From positions 1 to 64,000 of the forward strand of contig NZ_JAMJEZ010000002.1 in NCBI RefSeq assembly GCF_023544715.1: a stretch of 64,000 nucleotides of DNA, read 5' to 3'. This stretch comes from Pseudomonas eutrophicaquae. Lineage in GTDB: Bacteria > Pseudomonadota > Gammaproteobacteria > Pseudomonadales > Pseudomonadaceae. Positions 43,298-61,637 of this stretch are shown here, in pieces. The notes under the pieces were generated by a model that was not told where the DNA came from, searched no databases, and worked only from the letters and a program-made list of their open reading frames with translations. The number at the start of each line of letters is the position of its first letter. Positions within the stretch are counted from its first letter, which is position 1. Position numbers and translations under genes: made by a program.

Positions 43298-44073
43298 GCA
43301 TCACCCCCGACCTGACCGTGGGCCGCGGCGGTACGCGCTTCCAGGGCACGCAGGGCCTCCAGCTCGACCTGGGTCGGCTCCGGCACGATGCTCACCTCAT
43401 CGGCAAAGCGGATCGCCCAGCCGGTGTTCTCGATGATCTGCTCGCGGGTCACGCCCGGGTGGATGGCGGTAACGATGAACTCGTTGCTGCCCGCTTCCGG
43501 CTCCATGATGCAAAGGTCAGTGATGATCGCCACCGGGCCCTTGCCCGGCAGGCCCAGACGCTGACGGTGATCGCCGCCCTCGCCATGACCGACCGAGGTG
43601 ATGAAGTCGAGCTTATCGACAAAGCTGCGATGACCCTGCTTGAGGATGATCAGCACCTCTTTGGCGCTACCGGCGATTTCCGGCGCGCCACCGGCGCCGG
43701 GCAGGCGCACTTTCGGCGAGAAGTAGTCGCCGACCACGGTGGTGTTGATGTTGCCGAACTTGTCGACCTGCGCAGCGCCCAGGAAGCCGACGTCGATGCG
43801 CCCGCCCTGCAGCCAGTAGCGGAAGATTTCGCCGGTGGGCACCACGGTGTCGGCGGTTTCGGCCAGCTCGCCGTCACCGATGGACAGCGGCAGCACGGTC
43901 GGCTTGGCGCCGATCGGGCCGGATTCGTAAATCAGCACCACGTCCGGGGACGAGGTCAGGCGCGCCAGGTTGGCGGCCTTGGACGGCAGGCCGATACCGA
44001 CGAAGCACACCGCGCCGTTCTTCAGGCGACGGGCCGCGGCCACGGTCATCATTTCGTTGGTGGTGTAGCTCAT
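43294..44073 (-). CDS. pcaJ: 3-oxoadipate CoA-transferase subunit B
   Basis: 259-residue beta subunit. The catalytic Glu50 in [12 protein letters not shown] forms the CoA thioester, and [19 protein letters not shown] is conserved. It transfers CoA from succinyl-CoA to 3-oxoadipate with PcaI. The start at 44073 overlaps the pcaI stop by one base. The size matches the CatJ type known from Pseudomonas B13, longer than the ~213-residue PcaJ of P. putida. Confidence 0.93.
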
Positions 44074-44930
44074 CACTTGGCCTCCTGCTGAGCGGCCAGC
44101 TTGGCCTGATACTCGGAGAAATCGGCGGTGCCGCGAATGTAGGTGTCGATCCACGCAGTGAAAGTGTCACGGTTGCGGGCGATCGGATCCCAGGCCTGGT
44201 AGAAGCGGTTATCGCGCTCGTAGTAGCCGTGGGCGTAGGATGGATGGGCACCACCCGGCACCAGGCAGACCGCCGACAGTGCCCAGGTGGGCAGCACGCA
44301 GGCGTTCATCGGCGCGTTGAGGTCGTCGACGATTTCCTCGACGGTGACGATGGCGCGCTTGGCGGCCAGCACGGCTTCCTTCTGCACCCCGAGGATGCCC
44401 TGCACCAGCACGTTGCCCTTGCGATCGGCCTTCTGGGCATGGATCACGGTGACATCCGGGCGCACGCTCGGTACGGCGGCCAGCTGCTCACCGGTGAACG
44501 GGCAGGTGACCGACTTGATCAGCGGGTTGACCTTGGGCAGGTCGGAGCCAGCGTAGGCGCGCAGCACGGCGAACGGCAGGCCGGAAGCACCGGCGACGTA
44601 GGCGTTGGCCAGGTCGGCGTGGCTGTGCTCTTCGATTTCCAGGGCGTGCGGCCACTGCTTCTCGACAGAATCACGCAGGCGGTGCAGGGAGCCGACACCG
44701 GGGTTGCCACCCCAGGAGAAGATCAGCTTCTTGGCGCAGCCCGAGCCGATCAGCTGGTCGTAGATCAGGTCGGGGGTCATGCGCACCAGGGTCAGCTCTT
44801 TCTTGCCCTGACGGATGATTTCGTGACCGGCAGCAGTCGGGATCAGGTGGGTGAAGCCTTCGAGGGCGACGGTATTGCCGTCGTTGACGAAGCGTTGCAC
44901 CGCTTCGCGCAGGGTGAGGATTTCGGCCAT
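44073..44930 (-). CDS. pcaI: 3-oxoadipate CoA-transferase subunit A
   Basis: 285-residue alpha subunit of the class I CoA-transferase. It includes the early GFTHLIPTAAGHEIIRQ and SGCAKKLIFSWGGNPGVGS. This is the longer CatI-like form rather than the ~230-residue PcaI of P. putida. First gene of pcaIJFD; a perfect PcaR-type palindrome lies 115-129 bp upstream of its ATG. Confidence 0.93.
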   Translation of the reverse strand: MAEILTLREAVQRFVNDGNTVALEGFTHLIPTAAGHEIIRQGKKELTLVRMTPDLIYDQLIGSGCAKKLIFSWGGNPGVGSLHRLRDSVEKQWPHALEIEEHSHADLANAYVAGASGLPFAVLRAYAGSDLPKVNPLIKSVTCPFTGEQLAAVPSVRPDVTVIHAQKADRKGNVLVQGILGVQKEAVLAAKRAIVTVEEIVDDLNAPMNACVLPTWALSAVCLVPGGAHPSYAHGYYERDNRFYQAWDPIARNRDTFTAWIDTYIRGTADFSEYQAKLAAQQEAK

Positions 44931-45037: not shown

Positions 45038-45059
45038 ATTATAGGTTCGATAATCGAAC
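45038..45059 (-). promoter_or_regulatory. pcaI promoter with PcaR box
   Basis: GTTCGAT-A-ATCGAAC (45045-45059) is a perfect palindrome. It differs at one base from the P. putida PcaR site that I recall as GTTCGATAATCGCAC. On the minus strand a perfect TATAAT (45038-45043) follows one base later. The box therefore lies in the promoter spacer, as described for PcaR activation. Confidence 0.85.
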
Positions 45060-45115: not shown

Positions 45116-46003
45116 TCAGCCCTGCAAAGGACTGGCCACCTGAGCCCCCAGCTCGCGGCTGATCCGGCTCTGTTGCTCTATGCCCTGGATCACCCGGTTG
45201 ACGATGGCCACGCGCGCCTGGGCGCCTTCGCGGATTTCGCCCATCGCCGTCAGTGCTAACTGCGCTTGTTGCAGGGCCTGGGTGGCGCTGCCGCCCAGCT
45301 CGCCGATCCCGGCGCGGGCGCTTTCGGCGGCGCCTTCCAGACTGCTGGCGATCTGCATGATCTGCACGCTGGATTCGTTGGCGCGCTGGGCGAGGCTGCG
45401 CACCTCGCCGGCCACCACGGCAAAGCCCCGGCCATACTCGCCGGCCCGCGCCGCCTCGATGGCCGCGTTGAGGGCCAGCAGGTTGGTCTGCATGGCAATC
45501 TCCTGGATGCTGGAGACGATCGCGGCAATGCTCTGCGACTGGCCACGCAGCGCGTCGAATACGTCATGCAGGCTGTCCATATGCCCGGACAGGCCACCGA
45601 CACGGCTGCTCACCTCCTCGATCGAGCGCAGGCTCTGCACCACCCGCTCACCAAAGCCTGCGGCCAGCTGGCTGGCGTAGTCCATGTCGTTCTGTACCTG
45701 GCCGATGGCCGCCTCCAGCGCCTGCAGGCTCGGTTGCAGGGTCTGTGGATCGAAGTCGCTGGTGGCCTGCTGGTGATGGGCGGCTTCCGCCGGCTCATGC
45801 GCCGCCGGCAGATCAATAGAGGGGGTTTCCATCTGGGCCAGGGCCGGCTCGGTAGAACGGTGCGCACAGCGCAGCAGCCAGAGTGCCGCCAGCAGGGAGG
45901 CCAGCGTGCCCAGCCAAGCGAGTGGGCTGGCCAGCTGCAGGGCTTGCAGGCCAGTCACCGCCACGATCAGTACGGTAGCCAGAAGAGAGGGAAGAGCGAT
46001 CAT
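45116..46003 (-). CDS. Minimal methyl-accepting chemotaxis protein
   Basis: 295-residue chemoreceptor. Two transmembrane segments (about 3-18 and 25-43) are joined by only a few residues, so there is no periplasmic ligand domain and no HAMP domain is visible. A Pro/Ala/Glu/His-rich linker leads to a signalling coiled coil with the hairpin tip [29 protein letters not shown]. The C-terminus lacks a CheR-docking pentapeptide. It lies 135 bp after livF on the same strand. The start at 46003 follows GGAG by 8 nt. It may sense through another protein or cell state. Confidence 0.88.
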
Positions 46004-46106
46004 CGGCAGACTCCAGCAGACTGTCGTCGTGCGCCAGCGGCCGGAACAGCGCCCCGGCGCACGGTGGGCGGGACAGAATACCTTGGCCATCCGGCGGACC
46101 AAGGGT

Positions 46107-46133
46107 CGAAGACCGCCTGGTGGGCGGTCTTCG
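46107..46133 (-). other. Hairpin between livF and the chemoreceptor gene
   Basis: CGAAGACCGCC and its complement form a perfect 11-bp stem with a 5-nt loop just after the livF stop. No T-tract follows, so it probably limits rather than ends transcription into the chemoreceptor gene. Confidence 0.5.
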
Positions 46134-46138
46134 CACAC

Positions 46139-46882
46139 TTACAGACCGATATGCTCCTGCAGCAGCTGCGGCTGCTGCTTGAGCTCGCTGCTCGGGCCAT
46201 CGTAGACCACATGTCCCTTGACCATGATCATGCTGCGATCCGTCAGATCGAGCAGCACGCTGACGTTCTTGTCCACCACCAGGGTGGCGATGCCGGTGTC
46301 CTTGATGGTGCGGATCACCCCCCAGATTTCCTTGCGGATCAGCGGCGCCAGCCCTTCGGTGGCCTCATCGAGGATGATCAGCTCCGGGTTGGTCATCAGC
46401 GCCCGACCGATGGCGACCATCTGCTGCTCGCCGCCGGACAGGTTGCCGGTCAGGTGAGCAAAGCGCTCGGCCAGACGCGGGAAGGTGGCCAGCACCCGGT
46501 CAAGATCCCAGTCCTTGCGACCGTTGAGGCCGGGGCGGGCCGCCATGACCAGACTCTCGCGCACGGTCAGGTTGGGGAACATGCCCCGCCCTTCCGGGAC
46601 GTAGCCGATGCCGCGGCGGATGGTCTGGTAGGGCGGCTGGCCGTTGACCCGCTCGCCACAGACATACACATCGCCGCGGCGCGGGGTGACAAAACCCAGC
46701 ATCGAGCGGATGGTGGTGCTCTTGCCCATGCCGTTGCGCCCGAGCAGCGCCAGGGTCTCGCCGGGGGCGATACGCAGATCGACCCCGTGCAGGATGTGGC
46801 TGTTGCCGTAGTAGGTGTGCAGACCGACCGCCTCGATGATCGGGGTGGCGGACTGCGGTGCCTGTGCCAGTGCTGCGCTCAT
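46139..46882 (-). CDS. livF: Branched-chain-amino-acid-type ABC transporter ATPase (LivF-like)
   Basis: 247-residue ATPase of the HAAT family. Walker A is LLGRNGMGKSTTIR, the signature is LSGGEQQMVAIGRAL, and Walker B is LIILDEATEGLAP. The substrate is not set by this subunit. The gene overlaps livG by one base (TGATG). Context (between cat and pca genes) suggests an aromatic acid or catabolic intermediate rather than leucine. Confidence 0.9.
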   Translation of the reverse strand: MSAALAQAPQSATPIIEAVGLHTYYGNSHILHGVDLRIAPGETLALLGRNGMGKSTTIRSMLGFVTPRRGDVYVCGERVNGQPPYQTIRRGIGYVPEGRGMFPNLTVRESLVMAARPGLNGRKDWDLDRVLATFPRLAERFAHLTGNLSGGEQQMVAIGRALMTNPELIILDEATEGLAPLIRKEIWGVIRTIKDTGIATLVVDKNVSVLLDLTDRSMIMVKGHVVYDGPSSELKQQPQLLQEHIGL

Positions 46883-47640
46883 CAGAACTCCTCCTCGCCA
46901 TCGCCCAGATAGGCTTCCTGGACCAGCGGATCGTTGCGCACCTGATCAAGCGGGCCACTGGCCAGCATCTGGCCGTTGACCATCACGGTGAGCTTGTGGG
47001 CGATGCTGAACACCGCATCCATGTCGTGCTCGACCAGCACCAGCGAATAGTCGCGGGACAGGGTGGCCAGCAGCTCCACGACGCGGCTCGACTCCTCCTT
47101 GCCCATGCCGGCCATCGGCTCATCGAGCAGCAGGAAGCTCGGTTCGGTGGCCAGCACCATGCCGATCTCCAGCTGACGCTGCTCGCCATAGCTCATGGTC
47201 CCGGCGATCACGTCGCGCTTGGCGCTCAGGCCGCACAGCTCAAGGCCCATTTCAGCCAGTTCGCGCACCTGGCTGTAGCGCTCGCTGCGCCGGAAGAAGC
47301 GGAACGAGTTTTTCAGTCGCGACTGGGCGGCCAGCCAGCAGTTTTCCATGCAGGTGAAGCTTGGGAAGATGTTGGTGCGCTGGAAGCTGCGCCCCATCCC
47401 CAGGTGCGAGATGCGCTGCGGCGGGGTGCCGGTGATGTCGCGGCCCTTGAAGATGATCTGCCCCTCGCAGGGCGGCAGGTGCCCGGACAACAGGTTGACC
47501 ATGGTGCTCTTGCCGGCACCGTTGGGGCCGATGATCGCGTGCACTTCACGCTGACCGACTTGCAGGGACACGGCATTGACGGCCGTCAGACCACCGAAGG
47601 TCTTGGTCAGACCGCGGGTTTCCAGAATGATCTCGCTCAT
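46882..47640 (-). CDS. livG: Branched-chain-amino-acid-type ABC transporter ATPase (LivG-like)
   Basis: 252-residue ATPase. Walker A is GPNGAGKSTMVN and Walker B is FLLLDEPMAGMG. The usual LSGGQ is replaced by TMSYGEQRQLEIGM, as is common in LivG proteins of this family. It overlaps livM by 4 bp (ATGA). Confidence 0.9.
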   Translation of the reverse strand: MSEIILETRGLTKTFGGLTAVNAVSLQVGQREVHAIIGPNGAGKSTMVNLLSGHLPPCEGQIIFKGRDITGTPPQRISHLGMGRSFQRTNIFPSFTCMENCWLAAQSRLKNSFRFFRRSERYSQVRELAEMGLELCGLSAKRDVIAGTMSYGEQRQLEIGMVLATEPSFLLLDEPMAGMGKEESSRVVELLATLSRDYSLVLVEHDMDAVFSIAHKLTVMVNGQMLASGPLDQVRNDPLVQEAYLGDGEEEF

Positions 47641-48683
47641 GGTTGGCCAGCCTCTTTCTGTACGGCGCCTGCCAGGGGGGCAGCGCTCTTGTTATTGACG
47701 TTTTTTGCCGACAGCCGTTCGGTGAGCTTGAGCAGCAGCCCGGCGATACCGCGCGGCAGCACCAGCACCATGCCGATCACCACCAGGCCCATCAGCAGCT
47801 CCCAGTGCGGGGTGATGGCGGCGAAGCCGGCATGCAGGCCCTCGAAGGCAAAGGCGCCGAGGATCGCCCCAAACAGCGTGCCCATGCCGCCGAGGATCAC
47901 CATCACCAGCACATGGGCCGACAGCTCCCAGCCTACCTGGTCGGGGCTGACGAAGCCGTACTGGGTCGCCGACAGCATGCCGGCGTAACCGGCCAGCGTG
48001 CCGGCAATCACGAAGGCCACCAGCTTGTAGTACAGCGGGTTGTAGCCCATGGCGCGCACGCGGGACTCGTTCTCCTTGATGCCCAGCAGCAGCTGGCCGA
48101 AGGGTGCGCGCAGGAAGGTGCGCAGCAGGGCGAATACCGCGATCAGCGAGACCAGCACGACATAGAACAGCGTGGTGCGGTTTTCCAGATCGAGCAGTTG
48201 CACCCCGGCGATGCTGACATCCGGCTTCATGAACAGGTAGGCGCCGTCGGAGCCACCGGTAAACGAGGAGTCATGGAAGAAGAAGTAGAGCATCTGCGAG
48301 AAGGCGATAGTCGCCATGATGAAGAAGATGCCCGAGGTGCGGATGATCAGCAGCCCCATCAGCAGGGCCGCCAGGGCACTGACCCCAAGGCAGATCGGCA
48401 GGGCCACCCAGATGCTGACAGCTTCGTACTCGGGCGCCACCAGCACCAGGGTGTAGCCGGCCAGACCGAAGAAGGCCGCCTGGGCGATGCTGACCATCCC
48501 GGTGATCCCGACCAGCAGGTCAAGGCTCAGGGCGACGATGGACAGGATCATGATGGTGGTGAGTTTTTGCAGGTAGAAATCAAACTTGTCGCCGACCAGC
48601 GCCTCGCCAAACAGCGGGAACAGGGCGATCAGCACGGTCAGCACGATCAGCAGGTTGCGGATCGGAGCAGGCAGGATGCGCAT
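47637..48683 (-). CDS. livM: Branched-chain-amino-acid-type ABC transporter permease (LivM-like)
   Basis: 348-residue permease with about nine spans. It contains the LivM-type LLVGITGMVSIAQAAFFGLAGY and IKENESRVRAMGYNPLYYKL loops. The C-terminus is a cytoplasmic tail (LLKLTERLSAKNVNNKS). It pairs with the LivH-like permease and starts 21 bp after it. Confidence 0.9.
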   Translation of the reverse strand: MRILPAPIRNLLIVLTVLIALFPLFGEALVGDKFDFYLQKLTTIMILSIVALSLDLLVGITGMVSIAQAAFFGLAGYTLVLVAPEYEAVSIWVALPICLGVSALAALLMGLLIIRTSGIFFIMATIAFSQMLYFFFHDSSFTGGSDGAYLFMKPDVSIAGVQLLDLENRTTLFYVVLVSLIAVFALLRTFLRAPFGQLLLGIKENESRVRAMGYNPLYYKLVAFVIAGTLAGYAGMLSATQYGFVSPDQVGWELSAHVLVMVILGGMGTLFGAILGAFAFEGLHAGFAAITPHWELLMGLVVIGMVLVLPRGIAGLLLKLTERLSAKNVNNKSAAPLAGAVQKEAGQP

Positions 48684-48704
48684 GAGAGGATTCTCCGCAG
48701 GTAA

Positions 48705-49565
48705 TCAGGCGAACAGGCCGCGTGGCTTGAACAGCAGCACCGCTGCCATGAGGACGTACACCACCATCCCGGCGAAGTCAGGGACCAGCACCGCACCCCA
48801 GGTGGCAGTCAGACCGACCAGCAGGGCACCAAGGAAGGCACCACGGATCGAGCCGAGGCCCCCGATGACCACCACCACAAAGGCAATGATCAGCACCTGG
48901 TTGCCCATCCCCGGGTATACCGAGGAGATCGGCGCGGCGATCATGCCGGCAAAGGCGGTCAGTGCGGCGCCAGCGGCAAACACCAGGGTGTAGATGCGGC
49001 GGATGTTGATGCCAAGGCCCTGCACCATGTCACGGTTGCTGGCGCCACCGCGGATGATCATGCCAAGGCGCGTGCGCTGCAGGACCAGGTACATCACCAG
49101 GGCGATCACCCCGCAGACAGCGGAGACGAACAGTCGGTACACCGGGTAGTCGAGCGTCTCGGTCAGGGCGATCGAGCCGGACAGCAGCGCCGGAATCGCC
49201 ACGCTGTGCACGTCATTGCCCCAGATGATGCTCTGCAGGGCGTCGAACACCAGGATCAGGCCGAAGGTCATCAGTACCTGGTCGAGGTGATCGCGCTTGT
49301 ACAGCGCCTGCATCAGGAAGCGCTCGATGAGAATGCCGATGCCAACGGCCAGCGGAATGGCCAGCGCGATGGCCAGGAACAGGTTGCCGACCATGCCACT
49401 CAGCCAGTAGGCCAGGTAGGCGCCCACCATGTACAACGCGCCATGCGCCAGGTTGATGATGTGCATGATGCCGAAGATCAGCGTAAGGCCGCTGGCGATC
49501 AGGAACAGCAGCAGCCCGTACTGCAGACCGTTCATGGTCTGGATGAGAATGCTGGAAAGGTCCAT
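48705..49565 (-). CDS. livH: Branched-chain-amino-acid-type ABC transporter permease (LivH-like)
   Basis: 286-residue permease with about eight spans. It opens IQTMNGLQYGLLLFLIASGLTLIFGIMHIINLAHGA, typical of LivH. The start at 49565 is chosen from family alignment; an upstream in-frame start at 49643 would add 26 charged residues that do not fit. No strong ribosome site is visible. Confidence 0.9.
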   Translation of the reverse strand: MDLSSILIQTMNGLQYGLLLFLIASGLTLIFGIMHIINLAHGALYMVGAYLAYWLSGMVGNLFLAIALAIPLAVGIGILIERFLMQALYKRDHLDQVLMTFGLILVFDALQSIIWGNDVHSVAIPALLSGSIALTETLDYPVYRLFVSAVCGVIALVMYLVLQRTRLGMIIRGGASNRDMVQGLGINIRRIYTLVFAAGAALTAFAGMIAAPISSVYPGMGNQVLIIAFVVVVIGGLGSIRGAFLGALLVGLTATWGAVLVPDFAGMVVYVLMAAVLLFKPRGLFA

Positions 49566-49690
49566 GGGAGTTATCCACACAACGAAGACAGAAAGGCGGC
49601 CGCCAGCCCGCCGCGCCCGACAGGGGCGACGGCTGGAGGACACTAGGTGCTACGGGGCCTTGCGGCCCGCTTCAGGCAGCGTGGGCGGCG

Positions 49691-50884
49691 TTACAGCTTG
49701 CAGCCGGGCGCCGGATCGCTCAGGTTTTCGCTGGCGATGTTGACCACCACGTTGTCGCCGTTGCGCACCTCGCGCAGGTAGACGTTCTGCACGGGGTTGT
49801 GGGCCTTGGAGAAGGTCCAGGTGCCGCGGGGGCTGTCGATGCGCGCCCCTTCCATCGCCTGCAGCCAGGCCTTGCGGTCCTGGGTGTTGCCGGCAACCTG
49901 CTGCAGGGATTGCGCCAGCAGCAGGCCGGTGTCGTAGCCCTGTACCGCATAGATGTCAGCGGCCTTGCCAAACTGCTTCTGGTAGTCCGCGCGGAAGGTG
50001 TTGTTGACCGGCGTGTCCAGCGAGTCGGCGTAGTGCAGGGTGGTCAGCAGACCTTCGGCGGCGGCGCCCTGGGCCTGCAGGGTGCCTTCGGTGAGGAAGC
50101 CTGAACCCAGCAGCGGGATCTTGTCCTTGAGACCGGCGGCGGCGTAGTCCTGAACGAACTTGGCCGCACCACCACCAGCGAAGAAGACGAACACCGCATC
50201 CGGCTTGAGGGAGGCGATCTCGGTCAGCTGCGACTGGAACTCCACTTCCGGGAAGGGCAGGTAGATTTCCTTGGTGACCTTGCCGCCGGCCTGCTCGAAG
50301 CCTTCCTTGAAGCCATCCACCGACTCGGTGCCAAAGCCGTAGCGCCAGGAGACGGTGACGATGTTCTTGTAGCCCTTCTCGGCCGCCACTTTCCCCATCG
50401 GGTAGGCGGTCTGCCAGGAGGTGAAGGAGGTGCGGAAGATGTTCGGCGCGCACAGCGGGCCGGTGGCGGCGTTGAAGCCGGCGTTGGGGATGATCAGCGG
50501 CACACCCGTCTCGCGGGCGACCTTGACCGCAGCCATACCGACGCCGGAGTGGACCGGACCGACCACCACATCGACCTTGGAGCCGGAGACCAGCTTCTGC
50601 ATGTTCTGCACGGCCTTGCCGGGGTTGGCCTCGCTGTCGACCACCACATACTCGACCGGACGCCCGCCCAGGGTGCCACCCTGCTGCTCGATGGCCATCT
50701 TCAGACCGTTGGTGGTGGCCTCACCGAGCGCCGCGAAGGTGCCGGTGTAGGGCAGCAACAGACCGACCTTGACCGGGTCAGCCGCCTGGGCGGAAGTCAT
50801 GAGGCCCGCGCTCAGGGCCATAGCCAGCGCGGACATCGAAAACAGTTTGGTGCGGTTTTGCAGGATCTTATTGTTGTTGTTCAT
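49691..50884 (-). CDS. ABC transporter periplasmic substrate-binding protein (Peripl_BP_6 type)
   Basis: 397-residue type I periplasmic binding protein. The signal peptide ends near residue 34 (SAQA/AD). The mature start is DPVKVGLLLPYTGTFAALGE, followed by VVVGPVHSGVGMAAVKVARETGVPLIIPNAG, both usual for this family. Relatives bind branched amino acids, urea, benzoate derivatives or p-coumarate. The location beside catA and a PcaR-type box upstream favour an aromatic acid or an oxoadipate-type dicarboxylate, which is inference. It is first in the five-gene transporter operon, which ends in the chemoreceptor. Confidence 0.88.
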   Translation of the reverse strand: MNNNNKILQNRTKLFSMSALAMALSAGLMTSAQAADPVKVGLLLPYTGTFAALGEATTNGLKMAIEQQGGTLGGRPVEYVVVDSEANPGKAVQNMQKLVSGSKVDVVVGPVHSGVGMAAVKVARETGVPLIIPNAGFNAATGPLCAPNIFRTSFTSWQTAYPMGKVAAEKGYKNIVTVSWRYGFGTESVDGFKEGFEQAGGKVTKEIYLPFPEVEFQSQLTEIASLKPDAVFVFFAGGGAAKFVQDYAAAGLKDKIPLLGSGFLTEGTLQAQGAAAEGLLTTLHYADSLDTPVNNTFRADYQKQFGKAADIYAVQGYDTGLLLAQSLQQVAGNTQDRKAWLQAMEGARIDSPRGTWTFSKAHNPVQNVYLREVRNGDNVVVNIASENLSDPAPGCKL

Positions 50885-50966
50885 TGTTCTCTCCGGAACG
50901 GATCAAAAGCGACAAGCCGGGTCATCGTGGAACAAGGTCACCGTAGCATCAATCCGGCAAAGGGCG

Positions 50967-50986
50967 GTTATGGGCGATAATCGAAC
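50967..50986 (-). promoter_or_regulatory. ABC-transporter promoter with PcaR-type box
   Basis: On the minus strand GTTCGATTATCGCCC (50986-50972) matches the PcaR site at 13 of 15 positions. A -10-like CATAAC (50972-50967) follows it directly. The box-to-(-10) distance is within 2 bp of that at pcaI. It lies 88-102 bp upstream of the substrate-binding-protein gene. Confidence 0.7.
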
Positions 50987-51175
50987 AGTAATACCCATAA
51001 AGCGCAATTTGCGGATACATCTTTAATACGCCTGTACTAGCCACTCCCCTGCCCTGATGATCTCGCAGCAAAGCCGCGTGCCAGAGGCTTTTATTCAGGC
51101 GACGAACGGCGCCGTGCCACAAGCTGCCCAGCGCGCCCGGACGGCCGCCAGCGGGCTACATGCCGCCGGCACAAA

Positions 51176-51190
51176 GGGCGATTATCGAAC
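51176..51190 (-). promoter_or_regulatory. Distal PcaR-type box
   Basis: GTTCGATAATCGCCC on the minus strand matches the PcaR site at 14 of 15 positions. No good -10 follows. It lies about 290 bp upstream of the transporter operon and 34 bp beyond the cat operon terminator. Confidence 0.6.
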
Positions 51191-51223
51191 AGATTAGCGC
51201 CCTGTAGGTCTCGGCCAGAAACG

Positions 51224-51258
51224 ACAACGCCCCGTCACAGGACGTGACGGGGCGTTGT
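51224..51258 (-). terminator. Terminator of the ben-cat operon
   Basis: A perfect 15-bp stem (ACAACGCCCCGTCAC and its complement) with a 5-nt loop, 43 bp after the catA stop. Only a short T run (CGTTTCT) follows on the minus strand, but the stem is very stable. Confidence 0.8.
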
Positions 51259-51300
51259 GCGACAGCCATTCAGCGGATCAGCATCCGCTGCTCAGCCGGA

Positions 51301-52248
51301 TCAGGCGCCTTGCACCTGCAGCGCGCGCGGACGGTGGCTGCGCTGCTCGGCTTCGTTGCTCGGGGCCTTCTGCAGCTGGAAGTTGAACTCCAGCTCCGCG
51401 AAGCGGCTGGCGTCCAGACCACGGGCCTTGGCAGCGGCGGCGTCTTCGATGAACTTGATGTCACCGACCAGGCCATCGCGGGTGGCGTAGGCGAAGTCAT
51501 CCCACAGGTACTTCTCACCGGCCAGGTTGATCTGGGTGGTCAGGTGACGGTGACCCGGCGCGGAGATGAAGAAGTGGATGTGCGCCGGACGCTGGCCATG
51601 ACGACCCAGCAGGTTCAGGCACTCCTGAGTCGGGCCTTCCGGGTGGCAGCCGTAGCCGCTCGGCACGATGGAGCGGGCGCGGTAGCGACCTTCGGCGTCG
51701 GTGACGATACGACGACGCAGGTTGTACTCGGACTGGCTCTTGTCGAAGTAGGAGTAGTTGCCGTCGGTGTTGGCGTGCCACAGGTCAACGGTGGCGCCGG
51801 CGACCGGCTTGCCGTCCAGATCGATCACCTGACCTTCGAGGAACATCACGGTGGCCTTGTCCAGCTCGGTGCCATCGTCCATGCGCGCTTCGCCTTCGCA
51901 GATCGGCGCGCCGGCCACGTACAGCGGGCCTTCGATGGTGCGCGGGGTGCCACCGGTCAGGCCGGCTTCGGCGTCCTTGGCGTCCTGCAGCACGTCGAGG
52001 AAGTGCTCAAGGCCCAGACCTGCGACCAGCAGGCCGGCTTCGTTGCGGCCGCCCATGCGGTTGAGGTAATCGACGGCGAACCAGAACTCGTCCTGGGTCA
52101 CTTCCAGGTCTTCGACGATCTTCGCCACATCGTTGATGATGCGGAACATCAGCTGCTTGACGCGCGCGCTGCCCTGATCGTTGTTGAGGCCGGCTGCCTC
52201 CTTGAACAGGTCCTGGATCGCGGTGGTGTTGGAAACTTTGACAGTCAT
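51301..52248 (-). CDS. catA: Catechol 1,2-dioxygenase
   Basis: 315-residue intradiol ring-cleaving dioxygenase turning catechol into cis,cis-muconate. Non-heme Fe(III) ligands are Tyr165, Tyr199, His223 and His225 (NYSYF, SGYGCHP, PAHIHFF). The N-terminal ~100 residues are the helical dimer/lipid-binding part. It is last in catBCA and is followed by a strong terminator. Confidence 0.96.
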   Translation of the reverse strand: MTVKVSNTTAIQDLFKEAAGLNNDQGSARVKQLMFRIINDVAKIVEDLEVTQDEFWFAVDYLNRMGGRNEAGLLVAGLGLEHFLDVLQDAKDAEAGLTGGTPRTIEGPLYVAGAPICEGEARMDDGTELDKATVMFLEGQVIDLDGKPVAGATVDLWHANTDGNYSYFDKSQSEYNLRRRIVTDAEGRYRARSIVPSGYGCHPEGPTQECLNLLGRHGQRPAHIHFFISAPGHRHLTTQINLAGEKYLWDDFAYATRDGLVGDIKFIEDAAAAKARGLDASRFAELEFNFQLQKAPSNEAEQRSHRPRALQVQGA

Positions 52249-59052: not shown

Positions 59053-59136
59053 ACTAAGTGCCGGCGAGAGCCGGCAATATCCACTTTCTGCACGAGGTTT
59101 ATCCGATTACTGCACTGGGTTTATCCGCTTTTTGCA
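59053..59136 (-). promoter_or_regulatory. benA promoter with three tandem BenR/XylS sites
   Basis: On the minus strand three exact matches to TGCA-N6-GGATA lie at 59122-59136, 59100-59114 and 59078-59092. All are in direct orientation and exactly 22 bp apart. A -10-like TAGTCT at 59053-59058 follows the proximal site. The XylS/BenR site is TGCA-N6-GGNTA; the Pm promoter has two such repeats about 21 bp apart. Confidence 0.85.
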
Positions 59137-60406: not shown

Positions 60407-60486
60407 GCAATGTCCGACAATCGCACGCTTTATCAACCCAGCACACCAGCTGCCTTGACTTTCCACCCCTCGCCGCCCGAAGGGCG

Positions 60487-61326
60487 TCAATGGAACAGCT
60501 GCAGACTCAGCTCACGGCTGGCGGCCAGCAAGGCCGGCAGGAAGCGCACTTCCAGATCCTGGCGACTGACCCGGCTGGCATGGGTGCTGACGTTCATCGC
60601 TGCCAGCACATGCCCGGCGGCATCGCGCACCGGTACGGCGATCGAGCGCAGGCCCTGCTCCAGCTCCTGATCGACCACACACCAGCCTTGCGCGCGCACG
60701 GTCTGCAGGCACTCCCAGAGCGCCTCGGCGCTGTGCAGGGTGCGGCTGGTCTTGGGCTGCAGGTCGGCGTGGTTCAGGTAATCGCGCAGGCTGGCGTCGT
60801 CGAGGGCGGCCAGCAGGATGCGGCCCATCGAGGTGCAGTAGGCCGGCAGGCGGCTGCCCACGCTCAGATCCACCGAAATCAGCCGCTGGGGAATCGCCGA
60901 GCGCGCCAGGTACAGCACCTCGTCGCCCTCAAGGCTTGCCAGGTTGCAGGCCTCGTGCAGCTGCTCGCTGATCCGGTCCAGGAACGGCTGCGCCGAGACG
61001 GCCAGCGGGGTCGAGGACAGGTAGGCGTGCCCGAGAGTCAGCACCTTGGGCAGCAGCGAGTAGGTGCGGCCATCGGTGGTGACGTAACCCAGGCGCATCA
61101 GGGTGTACAGGCAGCGCCGCACCGCCGCGCGGGGAATCTCGGTGCGGTGGCTGATCTGGGCGATGGTCAGGTGACGCTTGCGCTCCTGGAAGGCATTGAT
61201 CACCGCCAGACCTCGCGCCAGCGAGGTCATGAAGTTGGGGTCGCCACTCAGACCCTCGATGCGCTTGGCCGGTGAGATGTAGGGCGGCGGCGCCAGGGTT
61301 GGCTGGGTCGGGCGAGCGTCGCTCAT
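60487..61326 (-). CDS. pcaR: IclR-family regulator of 3-oxoadipate catabolism PcaR
   Basis: 279-residue IclR regulator. The N-terminal winged HTH is in about 30-90 (SLARGLAVINAFQERKRHLTIAQISHRTEIPRAAVRRCLYTL) and the effector domain follows. PcaR activates pca genes with 3-oxoadipate as inducer and represses itself. The start at 61326 has GAGG about 9 nt upstream. Two PcaR-type boxes sit over its own promoter. Confidence 0.92.
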   Translation of the reverse strand: MSDARPTQPTLAPPPYISPAKRIEGLSGDPNFMTSLARGLAVINAFQERKRHLTIAQISHRTEIPRAAVRRCLYTLMRLGYVTTDGRTYSLLPKVLTLGHAYLSSTPLAVSAQPFLDRISEQLHEACNLASLEGDEVLYLARSAIPQRLISVDLSVGSRLPAYCTSMGRILLAALDDASLRDYLNHADLQPKTSRTLHSAEALWECLQTVRAQGWCVVDQELEQGLRSIAVPVRDAAGHVLAAMNVSTHASRVSRQDLEVRFLPALLAASRELSLQLFH

Positions 61327-61637
61327 GACGGGTATTCCTCGAACGGGGCACAACAAAGGTCGGCGATTATCGAACCTTGGGGCGATAATCGCAACGCATG
61401 CCACGCAGGATTGACCCCTGGCGCCGCAGGGCGTACCGTGCGCGCGCTCGTGATCGTTGCCAGGTCTTGTCAGGTACCCCGCAGCGGCGGCGCGATGGCC
61501 AGACCATCGCCACCCCCTCGATCACGCGCCTGTCGCGCTGCTTGCAGCCGGCACACGCCCCCGTCCACAAGCCGGCCCGGCGTGCTCTTCCCTTCTGTAC
61601 TAGCCAGCCGCCAAAAGCGGCTCTGGCCCTCTCTCGC
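61327..61637. other. Intergenic region between pcaR and the MFS gene
   Basis: A 311-bp gene-free stretch holding the pcaR promoter (61361-61394, listed separately). Beyond about 61400 it is GC-rich sequence with no feature I can support. Confidence 0.6.
61361..61394 (-). promoter_or_regulatory. pcaR promoter with two PcaR-type boxes
   Basis: On the minus strand TTGCGA (61394-61389), a 17-bp spacer and GATAAT (61371-61366) form a good promoter 40-68 bp upstream of pcaR. One box (61361-61375, 13 of 15) covers the -10. A second (61380-61394, read on the plus strand, 12 of 15) covers the -35. This layout fits autorepression. Confidence 0.75.

Follow-up and report, generated by a model that had tools for sequence, protein, structure and literature searches.

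Putative benzoate ABC importer operon with a sensorless chemoreceptor and PcaR-type boxes between catA and pcaI of Pseudomonas eutrophicaquae

In Pseudomonas, the uptake of aromatic acids is usually ascribed to carriers of the major facilitator superfamily (MFS; BenK and PcaK) and to BenE carriers. An ATP-binding cassette (ABC) importer of the HAAT type beside benzoate genes is described from Rhodopseudomonas palustris (RPA0665-0668/hbaEFGHI; PDB 4evq and 4evr), where the genes are flanked by the bad and hba operons of the CoA-linked anaerobic routes (PMC3223731). As for regulation, benzoate ABC transporters of Betaproteobacteria were predicted under BoxR and BenR (PMC6449761), LivKHMG-type transporter COGs are among the co-occurring COGs of IclR-family regulogs (PMC8222616), and the PcaR regulon of P. 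putida comprises pcaIJ, pcaF and pcaBDC (PMC12455658). A pcaR mutant of P. stutzeri A1501, a strain without catR, could no longer grow on benzoate or catechol (PMC2907835); that paper was indexed with no occurrence of 'ABC transporter'. We analyzed a stretch of 64,000 nucleotides from P. eutrophicaquae (the window; positions 1 to 64,000 of contig NZ_JAMJEZ010000002.1, assembly GCF_023544715.1), in which an operon of five ABC transporter genes and a chemoreceptor gene lies between catA and pcaI. The operon shares with the R. palustris genes the HAAT-type importer beside benzoate genes, but its setting is ben-cat-pca, and the PcaR boxes and the chemoreceptor belong to the window importer and not to the R. 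palustris one. With the Betaproteobacteria systems it shares a predicted benzoate importer within a benzoate regulon, but the regulators predicted there are others, PcaR not being among them in the accessible part of the report (PMC6449761). With the P. putida PcaR regulon it shares an operator with the GTTCGATWATCG core (PMC12455658); P. putida uses the MFS transporter PcaK and the chemoreceptor PcaY with a ligand-binding domain (PMC5449446), whereas in the window the importer is of the ABC kind and the receptor lacks such a domain. The sequence-only reading had supposed that the link of PcaR to this transporter was not described. No such link was found in the open-access PMC literature (most subscription papers lay outside this search), and to that extent the claim stood; it needs to be qualified in that IclR-family control of the benzoate-type ABC transporters was already suggested for the Polaromonas copies (PMC6449761). 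Thus, the kind of transporter is known, and its wiring to PcaR appears to be new.

We consider it probable that the operon encodes a benzoate importer and a sensorless chemoreceptor that are switched by PcaR in response to 3-oxoadipate or a like dicarboxylate, of which we infer the cargo, the binding, the direction of control, the effector and the role of the receptor. The importer would be of the RPA0668 (HbaE) kind and would be co-expressed with the chemoreceptor, and PcaR would bind the promoter region of the operon itself at two boxes. Once benzoate-derived 3-oxoadipate (or a like dicarboxylate) accumulates, the operon would be turned on together with pcaIJFD and pcaR, giving a feed-forward loop in which the degradation of the first trickle of benzoate leads to more benzoate uptake. 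If this is true, an ATP-driven benzoate importer under late-product control would allow scavenging at low benzoate with a simple positive-feedback circuit.

The evidence for PcaR is as follows. Box 1 (GTTCGATTATCGCCC) had been noticed before as agreeing in 13 of 15 bases with the known PcaR site, and this was confirmed against the published P. putida operator GTTCGATAATCGCAC (two of the 15 bases differ; PMC12455658); its center is 95 bp upstream of the start codon of the binding-protein gene. Box 2 (GTTCGATAATCGCCC), which was absent from the earlier reading, sits 204 bp upstream of box 1. The P. putida motif is stated as WWWRKTCGATWATCGSAYRRW (PMC8222616), and both boxes fit KTCGATWATCGS but miss the following A. 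With at most two mismatches, GTTCGATNATCGNNC has 16 matches in the window (palindromic matches counted on both strands), compared with 3.88 expected, and none of 100 shuffles reached 16. The whole genome (G000; 2.55 Mb, completeness 99.85%) has exact GTTCGATWATCGNNC at three positions (45045, a palindrome matching on both strands; 50972; and 51176), and one-mismatch matches at 61361, in the own promoter of pcaR, and once on contig C23. Two sites with the GTTCGATWATCG core lie upstream of the operon, as is expected of a PcaR regulon member. The IclR_C search of the genome detected one protein, PcaR (the same search had matches in 8 of 14 control genomes). One IclR-family regulator was thus found, and its candidate sites mark three promoters, those of pcaR, the ABC operon and pcaI. 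The best solved relative of this PcaR is P. putida PcaR (8eju; E 1.1e-139), the recognition-helix stretch IPRAAVRRCL is identical between the two, and the five succinate-contact residues described in PMC12455658, mapped on the 8eju alignment, are all retained. A strong terminator-like hairpin (15-bp stem) ends catA, so that the operon would be isolated from cat transcription and should depend on a start of its own. Given the two boxes, the single IclR-family regulator, the conserved effector residues and the promoter region behind the terminator, PcaR-type control, as first proposed in the sequence-only reading, is still the best reading of the operon, and we regard it as quite probable.

As for the promoter, CATAAC follows box 1, as had been noticed before, and shares its last base; the supposed same layout of box and -10 at pcaI was not conserved, the sequence right after the box being variable among the pcaI promoters of the relatives and not -10-like. 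In all 15 pcaI promoters of relatives that were compared, and in that of the window, CGGATTG begins 29 positions after the start of the box (offset +29), followed by TTGTTT in 10 of the 15 (TTGTTC or TTGTCT in the remainder) and, 17 bases further, by TACTGT or TAATGT in 13 (the latter two by-eye counts). At the ABC operon, CGGATTG lies at +30 from box 1; the window has eight CGGATTG (9.36 expected), two of which are at the pcaI and ABC-operon promoters. It is possible that the box forms the operon promoter together with CATAAC and a BenR-like half-site. By the title of Guo and Houghton (1999), PcaR acts through binding at the -35 as well as the -10 element.

Several results weigh against PcaR control of the operon. 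With the 15-bp profile of the pcaI promoters, box 1 scored 18.0, below 19.5, the best of 40 order-1 Markov random windows (mean of the maxima, 11.2). With a 36-bp profile from 15 pcaI promoters, the operon scored 2.4, against 56.6 at the pcaI of the window, and an unrelated place in the window scored 4.4; the second operator half is degenerate at the ABC-operon promoter, and a search of 50700-51400 gave no sigma-70 consensus promoter. In none of L009-L022, the 14 nearest loci (one is a gammaproteobacterial metagenome-assembled genome, the other 13 have Pseudomonas or Stutzerimonas in their titles), did the 500 bp before the binding-protein gene contain a PcaR-type site with at most two mismatches, so that the canonical operon boxes are without phylogenetic confirmation; the intergenic DNA between catA and the operon had no match in any relative compared, and five sister genomes carry a variant box, GTGCGATYAGCGCAC, and a second PcaR (PcaR2) instead of the canonical operon box. 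Succinate and other di- or tricarboxylates also elicited a response from P. putida PcaR in E. coli (PMC12455658), and the effector may thus be more than 3-oxoadipate alone. Finally, the BenR-type half-site beside box 1 makes another controller, or joint control with BenR, possible.

In its full form, this last view holds that the importer carries benzoate and that its main switch is BenR responding to benzoate, PcaR being a minor partner or none, and we judge it unlikely. The half-site TGCGCTTTATGGGTA (one mismatch) lies 5 bp upstream of box 1 on the coding strand, and the opposite strand has two further one-mismatch matches within 62 bp. Three exact half-sites (TGCA-N6-GGNTA, which we take to be the BenR/XylS consensus, an assumption supported by these repeats) precede benA at 59078-59136 with 22-bp spacing, among five exact ones in the window. 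Also, the relatives without the PcaR box (L013-L022) have the operon after catA, benE and porin on the same strand, and these may be read together. Half-sites with at most one mismatch are, however, common (49 versus 36.67 expected), one match near box 1 is rightly oriented with no second repeat at 21-22 bp seen by eye, and a pair of exact-core PcaR boxes is a much rarer finding than BenR-type matches.

The cargo can be weighed independently of the regulator. The nearest solved protein to the binding protein is RPA0668 (50% identity over 360 residues), and the structure of this nearest relative contains 4-hydroxybenzoate; PDB 4evr is presumably the benzoate complex. Of 106 binding-protein relatives, 80 orthologous loci were sorted: 32 have ben genes nearby, 40 have benzoyl-CoA genes (boxC or a benzoate-CoA ligase gene) and 8 have neither (5 of these being shorter than 12 kb; for L009, the ben genes lie on another contig, of genome G005), so that benzoate catabolism is linked to the binding protein across lineages in 72 of 80. 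pcaF was excluded as a sorting marker. Benzoate is highly probable as the cargo on these comparisons, with 4-hydroxybenzoate or salicylate perhaps as further cargo. That one of the latter, or another substituted benzoate, is the main cargo would agree with their binding by RPA0668, but is improbable, the neighbor genes here and in the 72 loci being those of benzoate routes. An importer of 3-oxoadipate or a similar dicarboxylate is very improbable: the position beside pcaIJ, the presumed inducer, a pcaF-like thiolase match in 4 of the 40 benzoyl-CoA loci and the fact that both benzoate routes converge on 3-oxoadipyl-CoA speak for it, but those 40 loci have no benA-D, catA, catB or pcaI match, free 3-oxoadipate is to our knowledge no intermediate of the benzoyl-CoA route, and the nearest solved relative holds 4-hydroxybenzoate. 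We give hardly any credence to an ordinary branched-chain amino-acid (or urea) importer placed here by chance. The five subunits are similar to those of such importers at the family level, and their best NCBIfam matches are all Urt models (bits/cut-off: UrtA, 101/493; UrtB, 194/250; UrtC, 156/296; UrtD, 246/304; UrtE, 208/286), but each is under its cut-off, as are the Liv models (LivK, 62/477; LivH, 86/379; LivM, 109/366; LivG, 203/362; LivF, 152/441), and leucine and urea binders score at least 11 lower in Z than RPA0668 against the binding protein. An assignment to LivKHMGF was accordingly rejected, every subunit being below the Liv cut-off, and the dicarboxylate, leucine and urea cargoes were set aside on homology and the 32/40/8 split. 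The sequence-only reading had excluded leucine, in agreement with these results, and had proposed an aromatic acid or a 3-oxoadipate-like compound; its aromatic part was retained and narrowed to benzoate, and its dicarboxylate part was dropped.

In the chemoreceptor, Pfam detected the signaling domain MCPsignal only, and no ligand-binding domain of the PcaY type was found with Pfam or from the hydrophobic stretches. Its two hydrophobic stretches (membrane helices) are 13 residues apart, too close for a periplasmic sensor to fit between them. Of the 14 nearest loci, 9 have a chemoreceptor match after livF (the contig of L010 stops 266 bp past livF); among eight of nine relatives compared (L015 was left out), seven have two hydrophobic stretches 2 to 7 residues apart, and that of L021 has one at threshold. 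CheW-family matches are present elsewhere in the genome. A link between PcaR and PcaY is known. PcaY of P. putida, which has a sensor domain, is a precedent for taxis induced together with aromatic uptake (PMC12288460, PMC5449446). The receptor of the window may report on uptake or the energy state.

The coordinates are collected in Table 1. The gene order on the minus strand is pcaR, benR, benABCD, benK, catB, catC, catA, operon, pcaI, pcaJ, pcaF and pcaD, and that of the operon is binding protein, LivH, LivM, LivG, LivF and chemoreceptor, which bears out the arrangement of five ABC genes and a chemoreceptor on one strand given in the earlier reading. The five HAAT-type subunits (one substrate-binding protein, two permeases and two ATPases) are consecutive, as in the RPA0668-type layout. 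The names of benR, benA-D, catB, catC, pcaI, pcaJ and pcaF were assigned from sequence and order, and those of pcaR, catA and pcaD (TIGR02427) from curated models.

Table 1. Features of the operon region and of the pcaR locus in the window
Feature	Position	Strand	Remark
pcaI	44073-44930	minus	82-97% identity to pcaI matches; adjoins pcaJ, pcaF, pcaD
pcaI box, PcaR-type	45045-45059	minus	perfect palindrome
Chemoreceptor	45116-46138	minus	start uncertain, 46003 possible
LivF-type ATPase	46139-46882	minus	
LivG-type ATPase	46882-47640	minus	
LivM-type permease	47637-48683	minus	
LivH-type permease	48705-49643	minus	likely start 49565
Substrate-binding protein, periplasmic	49691-50884	minus	RPA0668/HbaE-like (putatively benzoate)
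Box 1, PcaR-type	50972-50986	minus	13/15 versus published P. putida operator
BenR/XylS-type half-site	50992-51006	minus	one mismatch
Box 2, PcaR-type	51176-51190	minus	14/15 versus published P. putida operator
Terminator-like hairpin 3' of catA	51224-51258	minus	fold z-score -5.93 (96-nt stretch)
catA	51301-52248	minus	
pcaR	60487-61404	minus	likely start 61326; TIGR02431, 341 bits (cut-off 284.75)
pcaR promoter, two PcaR-type boxes	61361-61394	minus	GTTCGATAATCGCCG and TTGCGATTATCGCCC, 19 bp apart

The relatives differ in this region. The order catA, benE, porin, binding protein was found in all 10 of L013-L022; pcaI, with a canonical box before it, was reached in nine of them. Genomes G001 and G002 have catA, benE, porin, box and pcaI without the ABC genes, and the window has no benE and porin between catA and the ABC operon, where blastn detected no remnants of them and the sole blastx match, to pcaJ (E 0.75), was meaningless. 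Five of nine genus genomes (G004 to G008) each have exactly one copy of the palindrome GTGCGATYAGCGCAC, before a homologous porin-ABC operon (the contig of G005 ends within the porin); the reversed control pattern had no match. G007 has a second tandem porin-ABC copy without GTGCGATYAGCGCAC; at this locus (L121), porin, binding protein and livH are in tandem copies with ben genes on both sides, that is, a duplicated benzoate uptake region. At the GTGCGATYAGCGCAC promoters, TTG is at +33 from the box, the same distance as at pcaI (by-eye count). PcaR2 adjoins benR in the same five genomes and in no others of the nine; it is 73-75% identical to the PcaR of the window, and the fixed differences include N271S, which corresponds to N257 of P. 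putida PcaR. Thus, compared with the window, the sister genomes have a homologous ABC operon with different half-site letters and a paralogous regulator. Note that, because of the close kinship and the location of PcaR2 in the same cluster, the co-occurrence does not amount to five independent pieces of evidence. As a tentative suggestion, for which we would not claim even chances, the benzoate uptake operon may have come under the PcaR family on two occasions in one Pseudomonas-related genus, by PcaR2/GTGCGATYAGCGCAC in five species and by two canonical PcaR boxes in the window lineage without benE and porin. PcaR2, having an operator and an effector of its own, would then serve benzoate uptake specifically, and motility would be coupled to this uptake by the domainless chemoreceptor. 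PcaR2/GTGCGATYAGCGCAC would also be a concrete example of a regulator of the IclR family that has changed together with its operator.

Similar sequences were also seen at other genes. GGGCGRTAATCGCCC (in one reading direction) is present between the second pcaR and benR in all five PcaR2 sister genomes, and in the window an imperfect PcaR/PobR-like palindrome, GTCCGACAATCGCAC (60412-60426), precedes benR. Four genus mates (L125:2428, L132:2886, L135:17014 and L139:7947) have the GTTCGATWATCG core before a different gene of the IclR family as well (28-29% identity to PcaR), and the core alone is therefore no proof of PcaR there. In three genus mates (L127:4829, L131:4634 and L133:4128), canonical palindromic PcaR-type boxes lie 260-400 bp before OprD-type porin genes, the products of which have about 51-52% identity to the porin of the benzoate cluster, and a PcaR-controlled porin is possible in these three.

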